Positions 880-31,735 of a DNA stretch of 60,331 nt are shown here, piece by piece. The translations under genes and the position numbers were made by a program. Source of the stretch: Bacteroidia bacterium (GTDB lineage Bacteria > Bacteroidota > Bacteroidia > M30B66). The notes under the pieces are model-generated. The model searched no databases. It was not told the DNA's origin and saw nothing but the letters and a program-made list of their open reading frames with translations. How positions within the stretch are numbered: the stretch's first letter is position 1; each line of letters begins with the position of its first letter. Where the stretch lies: positions 1-60,331 of the forward strand of contig JAIBAI010000011.1 in the NCBI GenBank assembly GCA_019695235.1, in the 5' to 3' direction.

Positions 880-2580
880 ATGAAAATGAAAAGTACTTCA
901 AGATTAAGAGTCACCACAAAGTTAAAAACGAGCCTTCGCCGTAGATTAATCATTGGTGCCGTTGGCTTTTGCATAGCAATTGCCACTTGCACAACCCTTA
1001 TTTTGAATTTTAATGCCGGTGATAGCCGGGCTTCTGAAATTGACGATGAACAACAGGAAATCGCATTGCAACTATTGCCTGTATGCTCTGAAAATCCTCT
1101 GACCCAGAAACGTTGGAAAATCATCAACCCAAATACCTACGACCTCCCTATTCAGTGGGATGTGTACCCTGAACTGCAAACTGGACTCCTGATTGCTCAT
1201 CCGGGTGAAAATTTTATCATTACCAATACCATCGAAGGCAGCAATGTGCTGCGCATACGCTGGCAAAATAAAAGTGGTGAATGGTTCGATTTGATGCAGC
1301 CTGCTTCTGCTGAAACCTGCCCTTCTTCTGGTTGCTACGCTACCGAAGTGGTGTCGTATTTCCCTGCAAAACGAAACGACGGAACTACCCTCCCGGCTGA
1401 ACAGCAAATGGTGTCTAAAGCCATCGGTGTACCACAGGGTAATGATGCCGCCGAATACGTTTCTCTTGGTTTCGGAGGCGAAATTACACTCAAATTTGCT
1501 GACCCAATTGCAAACGGACCCGGTGACGACCTTATGATTCATGAGTCTACCATGGGTGCAAAATCCTGCGAACGCTATCCGGAAAAAGCAATGGTATTTG
1601 CATCACAGGATGGATGCCATTTTATTTACCTCGGCGAAGCTTGCCAGGATGCCAGCTTCGACCTGGGTGCAATGAGCTGGATACGCTTTGTGAAACTGAA
1701 AGATATCAGCCCGGTAACTTATCCTTATGGCAATCAAACTGCTGATGGTTACGACCTTGATGCAATTCAATGCCTCAATGGCACCGCTAATACAACTCCT
1801 GATGATGGACTTGTTGCCGGATCTGCCCAAGAGGTAAGCCAATATGTTCAGGGTACCCGGAAAAATGGAACCAATATCCACCCCTCCAGAACAAACCCCG
1901 AAATGGCTTTGGGTGTACCACAAAACGACGACCTGGGTATCAACTTCGTTTCGCTCGGCTTTACAGGCATGATCGCACTGAAATTTGATTATGTTGTTTT
2001 TAACCGCGAAGGCAACGACCTGCAAGTAATCGAAACTTCTTATGGTATTGCTGAGTGTCAAATATACCCTGAGCAGGCTTTCTTTGAAGGCTCTCTCGAT
2101 GGCGAATCTTGGTTCGCAATGGGCGAGGTATGCCTCGATGGTGAACTCGACCTGGGAGCCGGTGTTTATGCAATTCAATATATAAGAGTTACTGACCGCT
2201 CTGCTGCAAGCAATTTCCCCAACTCTGCCGATGGCTTCGACCTCGACGGAATTATTGTACTCGATGATTGCCCCGGTCAGGCACGTATCCAAGCATTTGA
2301 TAATATTACTACCCCTGATGAAATAGCCGAAATTAAAATGTCGCCCAACCCATTCCGCGACATCAGTACCCTTGAATACGAAACAGGCTCTGTTGACGAA
2401 AGGGTGAATATCGCATTCTATAATTATGTCGGCCAAATGGTGCATAGCGAAAGAGTGAAAATTCCTAAAAATACCCGCTATCAGCACCCTATAAATGGCG
2501 GCGATTTGCCTAAAGGGGTGTATATCGTATCAGTCGAATCCGGCGGACAAAAACAAAGCATCAGGGTGATTAAAAACTGA
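880..2580 (+). CDS. Secreted protein with two tandem surface-protein domains and a T9SS type A sorting domain
   Basis: 566 residues. A basic N-terminus and hydrophobic segment (about residues 23-43) look like a signal peptide or anchor. The body holds two homologous domains of about 145 residues each (about 148-300 and 318-465). Both share an ALGVPQ/AIGVPQ opening, a YVSLGF or FVSLGF strand, a GDDL/GNDL turn and a closing DGYDLDAI or DGFDLDGI motif. The last 80 residues (from MSPNPFRDIS to the terminal RVIKN) form a type A T9SS sorting domain, so the protein should cross the outer membrane and be attached or released. The repeated domain is also present in the cobalamin-locus protein at 27471-28469. 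Its ligand is unknown. Confidence 0.85.
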   Translation: MKMKSTSRLRVTTKLKTSLRRRLIIGAVGFCIAIATCTTLILNFNAGDSRASEIDDEQQEIALQLLPVCSENPLTQKRWKIINPNTYDLPIQWDVYPELQTGLLIAHPGENFIITNTIEGSNVLRIRWQNKSGEWFDLMQPASAETCPSSGCYATEVVSYFPAKRNDGTTLPAEQQMVSKAIGVPQGNDAAEYVSLGFGGEITLKFADPIANGPGDDLMIHESTMGAKSCERYPEKAMVFASQDGCHFIYLGEACQDASFDLGAMSWIRFVKLKDISPVTYPYGNQTADGYDLDAIQCLNGTANTTPDDGLVAGSAQEVSQYVQGTRKNGTNIHPSRTNPEMALGVPQNDDLGINFVSLGFTGMIALKFDYVVFNREGNDLQVIETSYGIAECQIYPEQAFFEGSLDGESWFAMGEVCLDGELDLGAGVYAIQYIRVTDRSAASNFPNSADGFDLDGIIVLDDCPGQARIQAFDNITTPDEIAEIKMSPNPFRDISTLEYETGSVDERVNIAFYNYVGQMVHSERVKIPKNTRYQHPINGGDLPKGVYIVSVESGGQKQSIRVIKN

Positions 2581-5496: not shown

Positions 5497-6549
5497 ATGA
5501 AAGTTAATACTTGCAGTAAAATAAATAGATGGATTATTGGCCTTGCTTTTTTGCTGTTACCTGTACTCAATGCCTGCAAGAAAGAAACGCCCGAAACACC
5601 CATTGAACAGGCCAAGTCAGGAAAGTCGGTGTTCGTACTCAATGAAGGTACATTTAACTGGGGAAATGCCAGCCTTGACCTGATTAATACCGAAACAGGT
5701 ACTTTGACCGAAGATGTTTTCATGACAGCTAACAAACGTCCACTGGGTGATGTGTTGCAATCTTTGACTTTTATTGACAAACAGGCATGGCTGGTGGTCA
5801 ATAATTCAATGAAAATCGAAAGAATCAATCCCGAAAATTTTATATCTACCGGAATAATTCAGCCGCTGACATCACCACGCTACCTGTTGCCTTTAGAAAA
5901 TAAAGTATATGTTAGTGACTTATACGCCGATAAAATTCATATCCTCAACCGACAAACAGGAGCAATTACCGGAGGTGTCAAATGTAGTGGATGGACGGAA
6001 GAAATGCTGCTTGTAAATAACCAGGTGTGGGTATGTAATGTACGCAAAGCAAAGGTCTATGTGATTGACCCCCAGGCTGATGTTATTACAGATTCAATCA
6101 CCGTAGGCGATGCCCCACGCTCAATTGTACAGGATAATAAAGGGCAGGTATGGGTTTTATGCGAAGGTAAAATCCCACCGGGCGAAACAACCGGCAGCCT
6201 CTGGAAAATTGATGCCCAAAGCCGGATGGTCTTGTCCTCTTTTACCTTTCCGGCGAAAAGCCACCCTTCGGCTTTGTGTACCAATGCTGATAAATCAAGC
6301 CTGCTGTTCCTGCTAAACGGACTTTATCAAATGCCGGTGGATGCAGCAAACCTTCCCGACAAACCCTGGATTGAACAAGAACAACGCTTATTCTATGGCC
6401 TTGCAGTGAACCCCGCTGATAATACCATCTGGCTGAGTGATGCAAAAGATTATGTGCAAAAGGGTGAAGTAATACAATTGAACCCCGAAGGCACCATCAA
6501 AGCAAGCTGGAAAGCAGGCGTTGCCCCGCGTGCTTTTTATTTCTATTAA
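5497..6549 (+). CDS. Surface or periplasmic lipoprotein with YncE/DUF5074-like beta-propeller
   Basis: 350 residues. The signal peptide ends in a lipobox (PVLNAC, Cys at residue 27) followed by Lys-Lys-Glu, so the mature protein is lipid-anchored. The rest consists of repeating beta strands typical of a YncE-like propeller. It opens with VFVLNEGTFNWGNASLDLIN, the style of DUF5074 proteins. In gut Bacteroides, the cobalamin-binding surface lipoprotein BtuG is a propeller of this general kind. This gene is not in the riboswitch-controlled cobalamin operon 22 kb away and has no riboswitch of its own, so a BtuG role is only a hypothesis. It has its own -7 box and is convergent with kup. Confidence 0.7.
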   Translation: MKVNTCSKINRWIIGLAFLLLPVLNACKKETPETPIEQAKSGKSVFVLNEGTFNWGNASLDLINTETGTLTEDVFMTANKRPLGDVLQSLTFIDKQAWLVVNNSMKIERINPENFISTGIIQPLTSPRYLLPLENKVYVSDLYADKIHILNRQTGAITGGVKCSGWTEEMLLVNNQVWVCNVRKAKVYVIDPQADVITDSITVGDAPRSIVQDNKGQVWVLCEGKIPPGETTGSLWKIDAQSRMVLSSFTFPAKSHPSALCTNADKSSLLFLLNGLYQMPVDAANLPDKPWIEQEQRLFYGLAVNPADNTIWLSDAKDYVQKGEVIQLNPEGTIKASWKAGVAPRAFYFY

Positions 6550-6561
6550 ACCACTCTTAAC

Positions 6562-8514
6562 TCAACCAATCCGCTTCAGATGGATGTCGCGGGTAGGAGC
6601 GATGATCATTGGTACCTTCTCAATATAAACCGAGCTGGTATCCAGACCAAATGCCCGCTCTTCTGATAAGCTGATATTCTTTAAGAAGAAGTATATGTCT
6701 AACACAATCTTCTCGTAAAAGGGCAACTCGTTCTCATTCGAAAGAAAACGCTCCAATACAATAAACTTGAAATCGCCAATCACCTGATTCTTGTTCAACG
6801 ACTCGTACCGGCTTACAATGTCAACCTCCCCGGCCTTTACCATGTCAGATACTACCTGCCTAAACATCAGATTGATACGGGGGGCTACCCTGAAACCTAA
6901 ATTGAAATCAACCCTGATAACCGTGTCTTCTACAATCTCTGTCACCTTGTAATCCATCCGGTGCGGCTCATCTACCAGATTTACATGCAGAAACCAATAG
7001 ATGTCAGCACGTTTGGGCTGCTTTTGTAATATTGAATAAATAATCTTCGATTCAACCTGCTCACGAATATTGGCGCTGGTAAGAAATACCAGATGGGTGG
7101 CGTATTTCGGAATGCTAAGATCCTGCTTGAGGTCTTTCAGCATCGGTAAATAATCATACAAATCAGCAAACTCAACATAACTGTTCCTGATCTTCCGGGC
7201 ATCATACCAAATCCACATTATCAACGCCAGTACCGAAGCAATCATCAATGAAATCCATGCGCCTTCGGTAAATTTACTCATGTTGGCAATTAAGAATGAA
7301 AATTCAATCATAAAGTACAAACCGATGAAACCATAAATGATTACCGGACTGTATTGCCGCATACCCATGAAATAAATAAGTAAAGTTGACGACATCATCA
7401 TCCCGATGATGATGGTTAACCCATAGGCCGCCTCCATGTGCCCTGAATCTTTAAAATAGAGCACCACTGCCGTGCATCCGGCAAAAAGCAACCAGTTTAC
7501 TGAAGGTATATATAGTTGCCCACGTAATTCAGTCGGATAATTGATGCGAACTTTTGGCCATAAATTCAACCTGATTGCCTCGTTTATTAATGTAAACGAA
7601 CCACTGATAAGCGCCTGACTGGCAACAATCGTGGCAATGGTCGAAATAACAAAACCTGTATAGAAAAACCACGAAGGCATAATCTCATAAAATGGGTTAA
7701 GGCCTTCGGCAATATGTTGACCATTCAAATGTTGAAGCAACCAGGCCCCCTGCCCGAAATAATTAAGTAACAATGAAGTCTTCACAAATACCCAAGTGGC
7801 ACGTATATTGCGCTTACCACAATGCCCCAAATCAGAATAGAGTGCTTCGGCTCCGGTGGTACACAGAAAAACTGCCCCTAAAATCCAGAACCCATGAGGG
7901 TAAGCTACCAACAAATGGTAGGCATAGGCCGGATTGATGGCTTCAAAGATTTCCGGCATGCCTGCTATCTGGTTGATGCCAAGCATACTTAACATTGAAA
8001 ACCAAATGAACATCACCGGCCCAAACATCTTGCCAATTGACTTGGTGCCAAACTGCTGAATGGCAAAAAGCAAAAATAATATCCCGATAATGATGGGTAC
8101 AGTATTGATTCCGGGATAAGGCTCACGCAAACCTTCAATGGCTGATGCCACCGAAATGGCCGGAGTGATGATGCCTTCACCCAATAAGGCCGCCCCCCCG
8201 ATTATTGCCGGAAATAACAACCATTTAACCTTGGTACGCCGCACTAAAGTGTACAACGAAAAAATCCCGCCTTCACCCTTGTTGTCTGCTCTTAAGGTGA
8301 GAACAATGTATTTTAAGGTGGTTTGAAGCGTCAATGTCCAGAATATACACGAAATAGCCCCCAAAACCAATTCATGGCTGATGGTGCGCTCACCCACAAT
8401 CGCTTTCATAACATACAGGGGCGAAGTGCCGATATCACCGTAAATGATACCCAGTGTCACTACTAATCCCGCTAATGTGATACGGTTTATCTTCGAATGT
8501 TGTACCCCTGCCAT
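6562..8514 (-). CDS. kup: KUP-type low-affinity potassium transporter
   Basis: 650 residues, the usual length for Kup. The N-terminal membrane part carries the hallmark GIIYGDIGTSPLYVM in the first transmembrane helix and GEGGIFSLY in the loop after the second, with about twelve helices to residue 455. A soluble C-terminal domain of about 190 residues follows. These proteins import K+ with protons across the inner membrane. The ATG at 8514 follows a TAATTTTG -7 box on the minus strand (8535-8542). It is monocistronic and convergent with the lipoprotein gene. Confidence 0.93.
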   Translation of the reverse strand: MAGVQHSKINRITLAGLVVTLGIIYGDIGTSPLYVMKAIVGERTISHELVLGAISCIFWTLTLQTTLKYIVLTLRADNKGEGGIFSLYTLVRRTKVKWLLFPAIIGGAALLGEGIITPAISVASAIEGLREPYPGINTVPIIIGILFLLFAIQQFGTKSIGKMFGPVMFIWFSMLSMLGINQIAGMPEIFEAINPAYAYHLLVAYPHGFWILGAVFLCTTGAEALYSDLGHCGKRNIRATWVFVKTSLLLNYFGQGAWLLQHLNGQHIAEGLNPFYEIMPSWFFYTGFVISTIATIVASQALISGSFTLINEAIRLNLWPKVRINYPTELRGQLYIPSVNWLLFAGCTAVVLYFKDSGHMEAAYGLTIIIGMMMSSTLLIYFMGMRQYSPVIIYGFIGLYFMIEFSFLIANMSKFTEGAWISLMIASVLALIMWIWYDARKIRNSYVEFADLYDYLPMLKDLKQDLSIPKYATHLVFLTSANIREQVESKIIYSILQKQPKRADIYWFLHVNLVDEPHRMDYKVTEIVEDTVIRVDFNLGFRVAPRINLMFRQVVSDMVKAGEVDIVSRYESLNKNQVIGDFKFIVLERFLSNENELPFYEKIVLDIYFFLKNISLSEERAFGLDTSSVYIEKVPMIIAPTRDIHLKRIG

Positions 8515-8534
8515 GTTTTGAGCAAATAAGGCCG

Positions 8535-8542
8535 CAAAATTA
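8535..8542 (-). promoter_or_regulatory. -7 box TAATTTTG for kup
   Basis: Exact TAnnTTTG on the minus strand, 20 bases before the kup ATG. No good -33 TTTG was found at the usual distance. Confidence 0.5.
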
Positions 8543-8713
8543 TCTGCTTTTGGCCTTTACTTGTTAGGTATTTGCAAATATTTCAAATGCGCTATAATAC
8601 ATTACCAAAACTTAACAATTTTAAATAGCTGATAGTCAAGTTGATATGTGCAAATCATACCTCATATCATCGCTAATGTTAAGCCAATGTTAACATTTAG
8701 TAAATAAATTGTG

Positions 8714-8721
8714 TAACTTTG
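8714..8721 (+). promoter_or_regulatory. -7 box TAACTTTG for the MORN-repeat gene
   Basis: Exact TAnnTTTG match, 27 bases before the ATG at 8749. The TTG at its end opens a longer reading frame but lies inside the promoter, which argues for the downstream ATG as the true start. Confidence 0.65.
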
Positions 8722-8748
8722 CGTTATTCAATTCAGTTTAACAAGAAA

Positions 8749-9159
8749 ATGTGTGCTATGAGAAGTCTGATTGTTTTAGCGTTTTTTATCATGTCGCTGG
8801 GCCTGACAGCCCAAAACAGAGAAGTACGTACCTATTATGACAATGGTACCCTCAAATCAACCTATCGTTATACCAGCGCAAGCAATTACGAGGTTACAAA
8901 TTACTATCCTTCCGGCAAAATCATGGAATCCGGCCGCTTTATCAACGGAAAAATGGATGGCGCATGGACAAGCTATGCAGTTAACGGCATACGTACCAGC
9001 GAAGGCCTGTATAAAAACGGTGAAAAAATTGGCGAATGGAAACTTTACGACGATAACGGTAGCCTGCGCCAAAAACTTGTCTATGAAGCCAATCGCGTCA
9101 TAAACAGTACACCCTACCACAGACCTGCTAACGCTGTCGCAGAGTCACATATTCATTGA
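8749..9159 (+). CDS. Exported MORN-repeat (YwqK-like) protein
   Basis: 136 residues from the ATG at 8749; the ATG at 8758 is an equally good start. A signal peptide (hydrophobic run ending SLGLTAQ) precedes about four MORN-like repeats of the form YxNGxxKxxxxY..G (YDNGTLKSTY, YPSGKIMESG, YKNGEKIGEW, YDDNGSLRQK). Such repeats are frequent in Bacteroidota exported proteins and are often labelled YwqK-family antitoxins, but no toxin partner is visible here. Function is unknown. It is followed at once by a terminator. A second protein of this type is at 31736-32161. Confidence 0.75.
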   Translation: MCAMRSLIVLAFFIMSLGLTAQNREVRTYYDNGTLKSTYRYTSASNYEVTNYYPSGKIMESGRFINGKMDGAWTSYAVNGIRTSEGLYKNGEKIGEWKLYDDNGSLRQKLVYEANRVINSTPYHRPANAVAESHIH

Positions 9160-26294: not shown

Positions 26295-27464
26295 ATGAAA
26301 TATCCGCTGATTTTTCTCAAACCTGGTAAAGAAGGCCCGCTATTGCGTAAACATCCCTGGGTGTTTTCTGGTGCTGTAATGCGTACTGAAGGAAATCCGG
26401 GAAATGGAGATATCGTTCATGTACTCAACAGTTCGGGTGAAATTTTAGCTACCGGACACTATCAGGAAGGCTCAATTAGGGTAAGAATACTCATTGCTGG
26501 TGAAACCCTCATTAATCAAGCATTTTGGGATAATGCAATTGCTCGGTGTTTTGCCAATAGATCAAGGGTTCATTTACCCTCTGTTGAAACTAATATGTTC
26601 AGATTGGTGCACGGGGAAGGAGATCAGCTTCCGGGCCTTATTGTTGATGTTTATGGCTCTACTGCTGTTGTTCAGTGCCATTCAGCAGGTATGCATAAGT
26701 GCAGGGAGCAAATTGCGAACGCCTTGTTAGGCACATCAGGAGGGATTGTCAGCCAGGTGTACGATAAAAGTTTTGATACGCCTGCAGGGATAGATACCCA
26801 TTTGTTTCTTGCAGGAACCGGCATTGAAGAAGTATGTCGTGAGAATGGATTGCTTTTTAAAGTTGACTATGAGCAAGGGCAGAAAACGGGCTTCTTTGTT
26901 GACCAACGTGAAAACAGAGCTTTGCTTAAGCAATATGCTTCTAATCGAAAGGTACTTAATACCTTTTGTTATACCGGAGGTTTCTCGGTTTATGCCTTAG
27001 CAGGGGGCGCCCAAAAAGTTGTTTCAGTTGATAGCTCTGCGGCAGCGCTTGAATTAACGGATGCGAATGTACTTTTAAACTTCCCTGATTCAGGCAGACA
27101 TTCAAGTGTCAAGGCTGACGTTACAGAGTGGTTAAAAAGTATAGCGCCTGATTTCGACCTGATAATTCTTGACCCACCAGCATTTGCTAAGCACATTGAT
27201 GCACGGCACCGTGCGGTACAGGCCTATAAACGCCTGAACCTTACTGCTATGAAAAAGATTGCCAAAGGGGGCATTCTGTTTACCTTTTCATGTTCACAGG
27301 TGGTTGATCGTGAGCTTTTTAGGCATACCATCACCTCTGCGGCAATTGAAAGCGGACGGCAGATACGTATCCTGCACCAGTTAACACAAGGCCCTGACCA
27401 TCCGGTGAATATTTTCCATCCGGAAGGGGAGTACCTCAAGGGATTAGTATTACAGGTAGATTGA
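26295..27464 (+). CDS. rlmI: RlmI-type 23S rRNA m5C methyltransferase
   Basis: 389 residues with the RlmI layout: an N-terminal PUA domain (LRKHPWVFSGAV), an EEHR-like middle part with GEGDQLPGLIVDVYG, then a Rossmann methyltransferase. That last domain shows DYEQGQKTGFFVDQRENR, NTFCYTGGFSVYALAGGA for SAM binding, LDPPAFAK, and a motif with catalytic cysteine in FTFSCSQVV. The E. coli enzyme methylates C1962 of 23S rRNA. A TACCTTCG close to the -7 consensus lies at 26280-26287, just before the ATG. Confidence 0.9.
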   Translation: MKYPLIFLKPGKEGPLLRKHPWVFSGAVMRTEGNPGNGDIVHVLNSSGEILATGHYQEGSIRVRILIAGETLINQAFWDNAIARCFANRSRVHLPSVETNMFRLVHGEGDQLPGLIVDVYGSTAVVQCHSAGMHKCREQIANALLGTSGGIVSQVYDKSFDTPAGIDTHLFLAGTGIEEVCRENGLLFKVDYEQGQKTGFFVDQRENRALLKQYASNRKVLNTFCYTGGFSVYALAGGAQKVVSVDSSAAALELTDANVLLNFPDSGRHSSVKADVTEWLKSIAPDFDLIILDPPAFAKHIDARHRAVQAYKRLNLTAMKKIAKGGILFTFSCSQVVDRELFRHTITSAAIESGRQIRILHQLTQGPDHPVNIFHPEGEYLKGLVLQVD

Positions 27465-27470
27465 TTGTAT

Positions 27471-28469
27471 TTACGCTGTAATTAAAATTTTCTTTCTGTA
27501 CGAATTTCCTGCGGCTAACTGTAATTCAAAAATATACAATCCTGAAGGTAAGCCAGTTAATTGCAAGGCGTTGATGCCGTCTGCCATTGCTTGAACACTG
27601 TGGCGTTGTACAATACCGCCGCTGGGTGCGTAAATGCGAATTGTTGCATTTCCGCTCTGAGGGGTACTAAAGTATACGACTCCCCTGGCAGGTTGAGGCC
27701 AAAGCCTAATGCCGTCGTGCACATCAGAAGGGATACTTGCTGAAGCTTCATTTTGATGAATTACCCCAACAGCATCCAGGTCGAAACCACCCTGCGGAAA
27801 AGGTGTTGGCCAGGGGTCGCGTACAATACGCCCTGATGCATCCCTGCTACAATATGCGGGCTGCTTGGTTCCCACAACATCCACAATCCGTATGTGCGTG
27901 ATGTTGCCGAGGTCAAGGCCGGATGAATCCTTCAATTCGTCAAGATCAAAGGGAGTGCCATACAAGGCCGGATATTTGCCGGCGAGATTGTTCAGGTGCT
28001 CAGGGTACAAGGTGTCAAAGCCTGTAAGTACAGCATTCGTGTCGGTTAAGGAAGCTGAGGGGAAGCGCACATAGCGCTCCCCGTCAGAACTTACTTCCAC
28101 AAAAGCCAATTCAAGGAACAGGCCATCGAAACTGTTTTCAAAAACAGCAAAATCCCATCCTTCTCCATTGCGGACCGGTAAGGCAAACTGTAGAACAGCT
28201 GCGCCCCCGTCACCCAAACTTACGATACCGTTTGCACCTGCTTTACCCAGGGCAAAATCAGGGGTACCAGTTGTGACATAACCAAGACTGTCGGCGTCAA
28301 TTTGCATTGGCCCGCGCTGCACTTCTGCTTTGGTGGCCCAGGCAATAAAGGCACTGCTGTCTTTGTGCATGGCTGTTGTACCTTCCTGGCCTACCCCCGG
28401 CGCATATTGACCGTACAGGGCACCCTGAATGCACATCAGGAAAAGGAAAATTGAGCTGCTGTTTTTCAT
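27471..28469 (-). CDS. T9SS-exported surface protein of the cobalamin locus
   Basis: 332 residues with an N-terminal signal peptide (FLFLMCIQGALYGQ). The main domain (about 50-245) has FALGKAGANGIVSLGDGGAAV, an NGEGWDFAVFENSF turn and PQGGFDLDAVGVI. These are the same landmarks seen twice in the protein at 880-2580. The last 80 residues (IRLWPQPARG onward) are a type A T9SS sorting domain. It starts four bases after the end of the DUF4465 gene and is third in the riboswitch-led operon, so a part in binding or handing over cobalamin at the surface is inferred. No direct binding motif is recognisable. Confidence 0.8.
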   Translation of the reverse strand: MKNSSSIFLFLMCIQGALYGQYAPGVGQEGTTAMHKDSSAFIAWATKAEVQRGPMQIDADSLGYVTTGTPDFALGKAGANGIVSLGDGGAAVLQFALPVRNGEGWDFAVFENSFDGLFLELAFVEVSSDGERYVRFPSASLTDTNAVLTGFDTLYPEHLNNLAGKYPALYGTPFDLDELKDSSGLDLGNITHIRIVDVVGTKQPAYCSRDASGRIVRDPWPTPFPQGGFDLDAVGVIHQNEASASIPSDVHDGIRLWPQPARGVVYFSTPQSGNATIRIYAPSGGIVQRHSVQAMADGINALQLTGLPSGLYIFELQLAAGNSYRKKILITA

Positions 28470-28473
28470 GTTT

Positions 28474-29448
28474 TTATTTTGTCAGAACCACTCTTTGCAG
28501 GCGGGCTTCTTTCTCTGATGCAAGGCGGATGAAATAAATGCCCGAAGCATGCGAAGAAATATCCATTGTGGTTTGCCCCTTTGCAATAGTGAAACGCGAA
28601 ACAACTAAACCTTGTAAATTGATAACTTCAACATTACCTGAATACGGTGCTGTGAAGTGCAAAATTCCGGAAGATGGGTTAGGGTAGATGTTCAGCTCGG
28701 GTTGAGTGCTATGCTCTGCAATGCCTTGTGCTGCTCCGGCTGTGATAAGATTGTCAATGCAAAAATACAAAGGTGTATTGATGCCAAAATCTCCAACATC
28801 GCTTGATTCAAAATAATAAGCAACACTGTCAACATTGCCAAGGGCAGTGAAATCAACCCAGGTCCAGTCTTTGATGATATAATTTGGTGCTTCTGTTGAA
28901 TAATCTGCCAAATAGAAGATAACGCTGTCTTCTTTTGCATTGCCATCCAGGTATCCTTTAAATATTACCCGGAAGAAATCAGAATCAAAGCCACCATCGC
29001 CACCGAATTTTTTTGAAAATGCATTGCCGTTTAACATTGTCATATAGGCATTGGTGGTGTTGTTGATAAATGCACCCTGCACCGGTTGACCTTTTGCATC
29101 ACCTTGTAAAAGAAAATATCCATTGGTAGTATTTACAGCGTATGTAGCTGAACCATTATAGCCAGAACCACTGATAGCACTGTACATATTGGTGTAATCA
29201 CCGTTGATGGTGTCTTTCATGGTACTCAGCGCAAAGCCTGATGACCAAAACCCACCGTAGGATGTATCCCATACAGTAGGGAACCAGGCATTACCGCTTG
29301 TGAATCCTTTGGCCGAATCGCCTGAGCCATTCCAGTAAGAATCTGCTGCAAGTTCGCGCTCTTCAAAGTCTGAAGTAACCTGGGCCATAGCACTGTGACT
29401 GAAAATAGCAAGAAGAAGAATTGTTGAAATTTGTTTTAAGTGTTTCAT
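28474..29448 (-). CDS. DUF4465 protein with T9SS sorting domain, cobalamin locus
   Basis: 324 residues from the ATG at 29448; the frame extends further upstream but the signal peptide (MKHLKQISTILLLAIFSHSA, then MAQ) begins here. The body matches DUF4465: FEERELAADSYWNGSGDSAK, GGFWSSGFALS, NYTNMYSAISGSG-like strands, and KDWTWVDFTALGNVDSVAYY with PLYFCIDNL. The last 75 residues are a T9SS type A sorting domain. It lies 13 bp after the TonB-receptor gene, on the same riboswitch-controlled transcript. A surface cobalamin-capture role is inferred from position only. Confidence 0.85.
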   Translation of the reverse strand: MKHLKQISTILLLAIFSHSAMAQVTSDFEERELAADSYWNGSGDSAKGFTSGNAWFPTVWDTSYGGFWSSGFALSTMKDTINGDYTNMYSAISGSGYNGSATYAVNTTNGYFLLQGDAKGQPVQGAFINNTTNAYMTMLNGNAFSKKFGGDGGFDSDFFRVIFKGYLDGNAKEDSVIFYLADYSTEAPNYIIKDWTWVDFTALGNVDSVAYYFESSDVGDFGINTPLYFCIDNLITAGAAQGIAEHSTQPELNIYPNPSSGILHFTAPYSGNVEVINLQGLVVSRFTIAKGQTTMDISSHASGIYFIRLASEKEARLQRVVLTK

Positions 29449-29461
29449 GGGTTTGTTTTGT

Positions 29462-31369
29462 TTATGATGTTTGTTTAGAGATGAAAAATTGTATTCCTGC
29501 ATGCCATGATCTTAGCGGCATCGGACGCCATGCCACCACTTCATAAGTGCTGTTAAGTAAATTGCGGCATGAGAAAAATAGCTGATTCGAAAAATTTCCG
29601 GTTTTTATATTTATTCGAATACCTGCATCTGCCAAAAAATACCCCGGCAAGCGCTGCGTGTTGTCACTCAGGGTATAACGTATACCGGTATAATTCGACT
29701 GAACAAACACAGTAAGTGAAGCCCTGGAGTATTCAATGTGTCCGGCGGCCAGCCATGCAGGTGTATATATGAGCTGATGTTCGGGCAAACTGTACCATTT
29801 GTCTGTGTCAGTAATTTCTCCGGCTAATACATGCTGAGCGTTCAGTGAAACCACCCATCTGTTTGAACCATTCTGATAAGCATATTTTAGGGAGGTTCCC
29901 AAGCCCATGCTTCTTGCTTGTTTGATGTTTTCAGGAGCCCAGTAAGAGGCACCAGGAATCCATAAAATCCGGTTGTTAATTTGATTCTGAAATACCTCCC
30001 CTGACCATGAAATAGTGCTTTTTGAAAACCTGGTAACATACTCAAGTGAAAGCTCGGCTGAATGCCCACGTTCTGGTTTTAATTCCGGATTACCTCCCGG
30101 TATCCAATACAAATCGTTCAAGGTCGGAATCCTAAAAATACCTGCAACTTGTGAACGTAATTTGAGTGAGCTATTTAGCGCCCATGAGGCCGACAGCGAA
30201 GGGGTCAGTGGGGCAAAGGTGCCATCAAACCATTCCTGCCTGAATGATAAGAGACTTACAAGTCTTTTATTTAACCAAAAACTTTGTATTGAAGTAAATA
30301 AAGCTGCTCTTTGCTGGGTACGCAAGGCTACCTGATAGCCATCAACATTTGCTGTATTGAATGTGTGGTTTATCCCGGCCTGAAGCCAATGCCTTCCATT
30401 GTTAAAAGGTGATTTCCACTCAGCTTCCTGCACGAGTGAATAGGCGTTATTTTGTGCATATAATCCACTAAGTGAATCGTTAAAATGAATCTTTTCACTG
30501 AAATAACCTGAACGAACATAGATTTCGCCCCTGCCTGCCTGAGCCTTCCAAAGAACAGAGGCTCTGATGAAATAATCAAATTGATGGGCAAATGCCATCG
30601 GGGTTGTAACCAAAGGAGGAATGTCGCGGTTGCTATGCTGGTGCCAGACAGATGCCTTCAGCAATTGCTGTTTGCCGAGAGAAATGTTTACGTTTCCACT
30701 TATCGCTGTTTGGCTGATGCCAGCATGCTGTTGAATTGTCAGCGGAAGACCTGGCAGAGCTGTATTACGGTATTGGTAATTGTTTGCAAAGTCCTGGTGA
30801 AAAGCCCTCAATGATACCGTAATGCGTTTTTTTACCAGGCTGCTTCTGATAAAGGTGGTACGGTTGTTCCATGAGCCATTTTGCTGACCTATTTGCAACG
30901 AGCTGATACTATCATTACTCGAAAGGTGCAGGGTGCCTCCTGCTGCGCTGCTACCCCAAAGGGCAGAGCCTGCCCCCGGTTGCAGGGTGAAACGATCAAA
31001 AAGTATGGGTGAAACAAGGTTCAGGTCTGATTGGCCATTCATGCTGCTTTGAATGTTAAATCCGTTCCATATAAGGGCCGTATGCGCTGCACCCATCCCG
31101 CGAAGAGAAGGGGAAGCCAAACTGCCATTGCTGTTCATCCGGATAAACATATTGCCTGATTGCGACAGCAATTCTCCCAGACTGAAGCTACCTGTATAAC
31201 GAATGTCTTTGCTGTCGAAATGGTACTGTGCTAAACCAGGGTTGGAGGAGGGGTGACGGTTTTGAAACACCTCAAATAATGGTAACGTGTCACGACGAAG
31301 CACTTGTGCATAAGAGAACCTTACACAAAACACAAAAACAATTAAAGGTACAAAAACTGTCCTGTTCAT
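29462..31369 (-). CDS. btuB: TonB-dependent outer-membrane receptor, BtuB-like (cobalamin uptake)
   Basis: 635 residues from the ATG at 31369 (an in-frame TTG at 31381 is less likely). A signal peptide is followed by a plug domain with GSFSLGELLSQSGNMFIR, SLRGMGAAHTALIWNGF and QPGAGSALWGSSAAGGTLHL, then a 22-strand barrel pattern. There is no N-terminal carboxypeptidase-like domain, unlike SusC proteins. It imports a ligand using TonB energy. The ligand is taken to be cobalamin because a cobalamin riboswitch covers the 5' leader. Two exported accessory proteins follow. No ABC transporter (btuCDF) is in the window. Confidence 0.9.
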   Translation of the reverse strand: MNRTVFVPLIVFVFCVRFSYAQVLRRDTLPLFEVFQNRHPSSNPGLAQYHFDSKDIRYTGSFSLGELLSQSGNMFIRMNSNGSLASPSLRGMGAAHTALIWNGFNIQSSMNGQSDLNLVSPILFDRFTLQPGAGSALWGSSAAGGTLHLSSNDSISSLQIGQQNGSWNNRTTFIRSSLVKKRITVSLRAFHQDFANNYQYRNTALPGLPLTIQQHAGISQTAISGNVNISLGKQQLLKASVWHQHSNRDIPPLVTTPMAFAHQFDYFIRASVLWKAQAGRGEIYVRSGYFSEKIHFNDSLSGLYAQNNAYSLVQEAEWKSPFNNGRHWLQAGINHTFNTANVDGYQVALRTQQRAALFTSIQSFWLNKRLVSLLSFRQEWFDGTFAPLTPSLSASWALNSSLKLRSQVAGIFRIPTLNDLYWIPGGNPELKPERGHSAELSLEYVTRFSKSTISWSGEVFQNQINNRILWIPGASYWAPENIKQARSMGLGTSLKYAYQNGSNRWVVSLNAQHVLAGEITDTDKWYSLPEHQLIYTPAWLAAGHIEYSRASLTVFVQSNYTGIRYTLSDNTQRLPGYFLADAGIRINIKTGNFSNQLFFSCRNLLNSTYEVVAWRPMPLRSWHAGIQFFISKQTS

Positions 31370-31477
31370 TTTCCTGTTCAAACCGGGAAATTGGCTGAAA
31401 CAGGGATACGGAATGAAGCAATCCGGACTTGCCCGTTGCAGCGCCTTTTTTCCCGAAAGCGTGAAACATCTGGCCTA

Positions 31478-31632
31478 AGGCAGGTCTTCTGACTTGATTC
31501 AACCCGGATGGCCTTCCCTTCAACAGAAAGTGGCCTTTGTATATCCGGGTTCTATACGAACCTTACAGCAGCGGGCACTGTTCCTGATTTTAACAGGATT
31601 CCCTTTTCATCACCCGAAGGTGAACCTGAAGC
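31478..31632 (-). promoter_or_regulatory. Cobalamin riboswitch in the btuB leader
   Basis: Read on the minus strand, the leader shows the B12-box layout. From 5' to 3' it has a CAGGTT P1 strand, AAGGGAATCC, a stem CCTGT/ACAGG region, AACAGTGCCCGC, GCTGCTGTAAGG, AAGGCCACT, GGGAAGGCC and finally AAGTCAGAAGACCTG. The CAGGTT and GACCTG strands close P1. It ends about 110 nt before the btuB ATG, leaving room for an expression platform. High cobalamin should switch the operon off. Confidence 0.92.
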
Positions 31633-31636
31633 CGGG

Positions 31637-31644
31637 CAAATGTA
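31637..31644 (-). promoter_or_regulatory. -7 box TACATTTG of the btuB operon
   Basis: Exact TAnnTTTG on the minus strand, placing the transcription start near 31631, right at the 5' end of the riboswitch aptamer. Confidence 0.7.
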
Positions 31645-31735
31645 AAAATTATTTGCTTAACCCTCAATTCAAATATTGCAAATTGATGTTTAAAATTCTG
31701 TGTAAATATTTGAAATTAGAGAGTTTGTTTGTTGC

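Follow-up and report, generated by a model that had tools for sequence, protein, structure and literature searches.

We analyzed a window of 60,331 nucleotides from a Bacteroidia bacterium (assembly GCA_019695235.1, contig JAIBAI010000011.1), in which a cobalamin riboswitch on the minus strand is followed by three genes, which encode a BtuB-like receptor, a DUF4465 protein, and another exported protein (the third protein) whose main domain we call D1. The coordinates under which an earlier, sequence-only reading had described this locus (27471 to 31644) are correct. The features considered below are as follows.

31637-31667, minus strand: promoter-like sequence of the Bacteroidota type, read from the sequence (TTG at 31667-31665, 20 nucleotides, TACATTTG at 31644-31637)
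31462-31644, minus strand: cobalamin riboswitch aptamer, RF00174 (99.8 bits, E value 9e-24, full model 1-189)
29462-31369, minus strand: btuB-like TonB-dependent receptor, 635 amino acids from the ATG at 31369 (alternative TTG start at 31381)
28474-29448, minus strand: DUF4465 (BtuJ-like) exported protein, with the DUF4465 domain at 28747-29259 and a T9SS type A sorting domain at ∼28486-28689
27471-28469, minus strand: third exported protein, with the D1 domain at 27750-28409 and a T9SS type A sorting domain at ∼27480-27704
28125-28136, minus strand: Asn-containing part of the D1 ENSF motif, in which the Asn is residue 112 of the protein and corresponds to BtuH2 Asn399, and the Phe corresponds to Phe401
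5497-6549, plus strand: BtuG-like DUF5074 protein (PF16819, 65.5 bits) with a lipobox-like signal (LNAC)

The riboswitch scores well above the RF00174 gathering score of 31.5 bits, and no other Rfam match was found in the window. Bacteroidota promoters follow the consensus TTG-N19-21-TAnnTTTG. The TTG-N20-TACATTTG sequence on the riboswitch's 5′ edge fits this pattern and is a putative promoter; an alignment of 13 riboswitches gives the consensus TACnTTTGCA for this position. Folding of the leader RNA gave a z score of −2.2, with no clear expression platform found and no T-run terminator seen. Downstream, the intergenic gaps are ∼13 nucleotides (receptor to DUF4465 gene) and 4 nucleotides (DUF4465 gene to third gene), and because they are so small, co-transcription of the three genes is likely, as is a leader common to the receptor and both small proteins. 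The neighboring gene at 26295-27464 is convergent, and the operon therefore ends before it. The proposal that a riboswitch-led cobalamin locus occupies this position is thus borne out by the RF00174 score and the three packed genes.

The receptor and its host genome

The receptor consists of a TonB plug (PF07715) and a barrel (PF00593). Its only sequence matches in the PDB were four Bacteroides BtuB chains (8p97, 8p98, 8bmx, and 8blw; best E value 2.6e-38), which makes BtuB1-3 of Bacteroides its sole solved relatives. Since it scored 72.4 bits against the NCBIfam BtuB equivalog TIGR01779, far below the cut-off of 599.7, we use the name BtuB-like. The locus differs from the BtuB loci of Bacteroides in that btuG is not adjacent; the BtuG-like gene, which is the only DUF5074 locus in the genome, lies 21 kb from the operon, whereas in most relatives a btuG-like gene directly follows D1.

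The genome is ∼100% complete. It encodes the SprA translocon (1263.7 bits, on two contigs) and proteins with B12-binding domains, and CbiC, the sole biosynthesis marker examined, had no match in it. The host, which has a T9SS, probably depends on external B12 because it lacks corrin ring synthesis, i.e., it is probably a B12 auxotroph. A genome-wide search with RF00174 found one riboswitch besides that of the window, at 39 bits. This second riboswitch (G000:C34:89463-89608, equivalent to L144:7464-7609) precedes the gene for the small subunit of a class I ribonucleotide reductase, followed by a 4HBT thioesterase gene and then that for the large subunit; a similar thioesterase adjoins D1 in loci L062 and L033.

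The DUF4465 protein and the sorting domains

The DUF4465 protein matched PF14717 with 142 bits (gathering score 25), and its PDB matches were the BtuJ1-type chains 9fct and 9qpm (1.4e-16), 9hmu, and 9i2l. DUF4465 is the BtuJ family; B12 binding has been shown for eight divergent members, and structures with bound B12 have been solved (PMC13398666); B12 binding by DUF4465 is also reported in PMC12751083. The window's protein has in common with BtuJ1 and BtuJ2 of Bacteroides thetaiotaomicron (BT_1491 and BT_1957; PDB 9FCT and 9I2L) the domain, the type of locus with a riboswitch and BtuB, and the HI-loop Tyr. The hallmark NTPxY motif of this loop is present as NTPLY, and its Tyr228 aligns with BtuJ1 Tyr245. 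In the DE helix, the position of BtuJ1 Tyr146 is occupied by Asn133 in the alignment, with Tyr135 two residues on; Tyr146 is a binding-site residue, not a domain-defining one, and its position varies among relatives. B12 binding by the window's protein would follow from the published family work. Among 35 DUF4465 open reading frames in the fetched loci, about half of the proteins in which the HI-loop motif was found have NTPxF instead of NTPxY, in contrast to the reported Tyr in 97% of homologues.

Both accessory proteins are T9SS-tagged and have no lipoprotein signal, as the sequence-only reading had stated. The sorting domain of the DUF4465 protein scored 43.5 bits with PF18962 and 41.9 bits with TIGR04183 (cut-off 23), and that of the third protein scored 26.9 bits with TIGR04183, above the NCBIfam cut-off and just under that of Pfam, 27. 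Neither signal sequence, read by eye, contains a lipobox cysteine. BtuJ1 and BtuJ2, in contrast, have lipoprotein signals. Many other DUF4465 proteins carry IPR026444, which we take to be the secretion-system C-terminal sorting domain. This entry was assigned to 229 of 824 DUF4465 proteins in the B. thetaiotaomicron study, which proposed an extracellular role (PMC12751083); T9SS-exported B12 capture by DUF4465 is already published and is not new here.

D1 and its relation to BtuH

D1 (∼220 residues) matched no Pfam or NCBIfam family above the cut-off, and in the literature on BtuH, or on T9SS with B12, we found no description of this family. Within the literature searched, both this family and the anchoring of D1 by T9SS are new here. 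The AlphaFold model of D1 had a pLDDT of 93.2 and a pTM of 0.92. When this model was compared by Foldseek with 350,542 PDB chains, BtuG1/BtuGH (8blw_B) ranked second (E value 7.5e-4), and BtuH2 (7biz) ranked seventh and eleventh, among galactose-binding-like domains, with TM-scores of ∼0.48. Resemblance to F5/8-type and CBM32 carbohydrate-binding domains was also seen.

The D1 profile found the BtuGH orthologue of a Bacteroides-type locus (E value 7.5e-9), an identity confirmed by comparison with 8blw and 7biz. In profile-profile comparisons with BtuH, the narrow D1 profile alone reached 54%, D1 with its intermediates 91.5% (E value 9e-7), and the intermediates 94.4%. BtuH was not found when the D1 profile was run against PDB sequences, and a single BtuH2 sequence gave 4% against the D1 profile, which is too weak. 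As a control, we used repeats from T9SS-type proteins of the same genome for which a B12 link is not known; these matched D1 at >99% and BtuH at 87.8%. The data support a single superfamily comprising D1, BtuH, and the paralogous repeats, and we do not claim membership of D1 in the BtuH family. Because the superfamily also holds repeats that match BtuH nearly as well, similarity to BtuH alone is no proof of binding, and we rejected D1-BtuH homology as such a proof. Taken alone, the link between D1 and BtuH is weak, considering the 54% of the narrow profile, the TM-score of 0.48, the lack of a PDB sequence match, and the 87.8% reached by the repeats. The repeat proteins are encoded at 880-2580 (plus strand) of the window and on G000:C26, C43, and C66; they are of the T9SS type and lack the Asn that contacts the B12 phosphate in BtuH2.

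BtuH is known from published work to bind B12, and in BtuH2 the B12 phosphate is contacted by Asn399 and the lower ligand by Phe401 (PMC8941943). Once the offset of 100 in BtuH2 numbering had been checked on named residues in the alignment, the ENSF motif of D1 was seen to provide counterparts of both residues. The Asn of this ENSF/GNAF motif was present in 91/91 D1 sequences, 15/15 intermediates, and 18/18 scored BtuH sequences, but in 0/13 paralogous repeats, all 13 of which have Ser or Thr at the same position. With BtuH1, BtuH2, and BtuGH (BT_1488, BT_1956, and BT_1490; 7BIZ and 8BLW), D1 shows similarity of predicted fold and of profile, and it shares the equivalents of Asn399 and Phe401 and the setting in a riboswitch-BtuB operon. 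It differs from them in several respects. BtuH2 and BtuGH are anchored as lipoproteins and have a PKD or propeller part at the N terminus, whereas the D1 protein is T9SS-tagged; the sequence similarity is remote; and D1 appears to lack a BtuH2 segment of roughly 60 residues with corrin-contacting aromatics. This segment contains His476, Tyr510, and Trp511, and no evident D1 counterpart was seen for it by eye, without structural superposition.

Association of D1 with B12-uptake genes

D1 was the only query in a scan of 84,980 species genomes, which gave 167 relatives; we kept 80 loci, chosen independently of their context. A cobalamin riboswitch lies upstream on the same strand in at least 53 of the 80 loci, or 54 if L084 is included, whose riboswitch falls inside an over-extended open reading frame start. 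Such riboswitch counts are lower bounds, as Rfam was applied to part of the loci and the regular expression missed several riboswitches that Rfam found. With two riboswitches in the 2.8 Mb of the window's genome, chance matches should amount to well under one in 80 upstream windows. A BtuB-like receptor gene was present in 53/80 loci, a BtuG-like (DUF5074) gene in 56/80, and a DUF4465 gene in 33/80, three of which (L051, L057, and L065) have DUF4465 fused to D1 in one reading frame. At least one of riboswitch, DUF4465, and BtuG was found in 66/80 loci; the 14 loci with none of the three include some that owe this to contig ends. A frequent gene order is riboswitch-btuB-DUF4465-D1-btuG, and the genes after D1 in L062 are cobT and cobS.

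The T9SS tail is equally regular, being present in 79 of the 80 D1 proteins, with the remaining one cut by a contig end; the curated TIGR04183 model detected it in each of the 15 full-length proteins in alignment A1. The association extends to D1 homologues of remote lineages (∼30 to 44% identity), where RF00174 matched in 8/10 neighborhoods and the D1 homologue is surrounded by BtuB- and BtuG-like genes, the latter called by profile similarity or by eye. The B12 linkage that had been noticed in the window thus recurs and is widespread in the surveyed loci, contrary to the absence of linkage elsewhere that the sequence-only reading had named as a refutation; across Bacteroidota, the D1 family goes together with B12-uptake genes. 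A plasmid search found nothing. Whether D1 and BtuH exclude each other across 395 genomes was also considered and set aside as uninformative, the observed overlap of 0 between 9 genomes with strong D1 and 11 with BtuH comparing with an expected overlap of ∼0.25. In L177, the gene adjoining D1 (6197-6757) starts like a corrinoid adenosyltransferase (HLYYGYGKGKTTS...), as recognized by eye only.

Other exported families in D1 operons

A second unnamed T9SS-exported family occurs in D1/B12 operons and consists of two tandem repeats of ∼150 residues (YWxGxG...AWG). Its members are listed here by locus.

L104:6733-7947, and in L105, L106, L069, L075, L061, L067, L074, L078, L088, and L107: tandem-repeat family members

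In L084, this family is fused to D1 as the N-terminal part of the protein encoded at 6522-8906. Pfam gave no match except for the sorting domain. The AlphaFold model (pLDDT 85, one good model of five) was used for a Foldseek search, in which the leading ranks were nearly all transcobalamin (best E value 1.3e-3), with haptocorrin and intrinsic factor lower. Judged from this model, these proteins are possibly bacterial B12 binders resembling the transcobalamin beta domain.

In several operons, the first gene after the riboswitch encodes a ∼430-residue relative of the BtuG-like DUF5074 propellers with a T9SS tail, and these operons also hold a separate BtuG-like protein.

L076:6629-7906, L044:3530-4816, L101:6646-7926, L112:459-1784, and others: T9SS-tailed DUF5074-related proteins

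Discussion

Taken together, we think it quite probable that the locus is a B12-scavenging riboswitch operon that encodes BtuB and two T9SS-exported cobamide binders, one BtuJ-like and the other with a D1 domain of the BtuH superfamily. When B12 is scarce, the riboswitch would leave the operon on, and BtuB would be produced alongside the T9SS-exported, BtuJ-type DUF4465 jelly-roll protein and the D1 protein. These two proteins would bind cobamides on the cell surface or farther out and hand them to BtuB, probably with the participation of the BtuG-like lipoprotein whose gene lies 21 kb away. The whole would amount to the capture set of Bacteroides, anchored through T9SS and not through lipid. 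T9SS-exported B12 capture, as put forward in the sequence-only reading, can be inferred with good support, although the DUF4465 half of that proposal had already been published. The contrast drawn there with the lipoproteins of gut Bacteroides holds for the anchor, but the protein set is alike: because DUF4465 is BtuJ and D1 is remotely related to BtuH within one superfamily, the main difference is the anchor.

Going beyond this locus, we somewhat favor the reading that D1 is an unrecognized, T9SS-displayed B12-binding family of Bacteroidota and neighboring lineages. It would belong to a capture layer of interchangeable or fused parts, namely, DUF4465, D1, BtuG-like propellers, and tandem domains similar to the transcobalamin beta domain of animals, in many environmental Bacteroidota. 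D1 could instead be a non-binding accessory or structural protein, such as a spacer, a protein that pairs with DUF4465 or BtuB, or an anchor that binds polysaccharide, which would leave DUF4465 as the sole T9SS capture protein. The superfamily does include repeats from T9SS proteins for which no B12 link is known, the model resembles carbohydrate-binding domains, the corrin-contacting aromatic segment of BtuH has no evident D1 counterpart, and BtuL of B. thetaiotaomicron, although encoded in a B12 operon, bound nothing when tested (PMC12751083). However, many riboswitch operons have D1 but no DUF4465, D1 also adjoins cobT and cobS, and the Asn399 equivalent is invariant in members from B12 loci while absent from the paralogous repeats. 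We therefore regard an accessory role as unlikely.

Both exported proteins could also be released as soluble or vesicle-borne B12 scavengers, serving as shared goods instead of being held at the cell, a reading to which we assign a similarly low likelihood. T9SS cargo may be either released or anchored, but proteins with a type A sorting domain are usually anchored on lipopolysaccharide by PorU. In favor of release, the BtuJ proteins of B. thetaiotaomicron end up in extracellular vesicles (PMC12751083). It is highly improbable that the receptor imports a substrate other than B12 and that the cargo proteins are unrelated adhesins; the TIGR01779 score would allow this, but the PDB matches of the receptor are to BtuB only, the riboswitch is a 99.8-bit match, and BtuG and DUF4465 are recurrent neighbors.

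Surface capture of B12 is understood from gut Bacteroides, in which the known capture proteins are lipoproteins. Under the favored reading of a T9SS-exported capture set, exported proteins of this type seem to do the same in free-living, sediment, and rumen Bacteroidota. The set includes in D1 a component without a family entry, which is a candidate for a second surface B12 binder beside DUF4465, and naming the D1 family would provide an annotation for one gene in many B12 loci. A question that arises is why one nutrient is captured with lipid anchors in some lineages and with T9SS anchors in others.

The Leptospira LIC_13355 family (NF033170), a remote relative of the D1 proteins from B12 loci, shows similarity to D1 below the cut-off and stronger similarity to distant relatives of D1 (L174:6551-7531, L172, L171, and L175; best E value 7.5e-12). 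LIC_13355 is a lipoprotein that has been studied as a binder of host components (PMC11891782). From this sequence similarity, a nutrient-binding role for the family might be worth considering.
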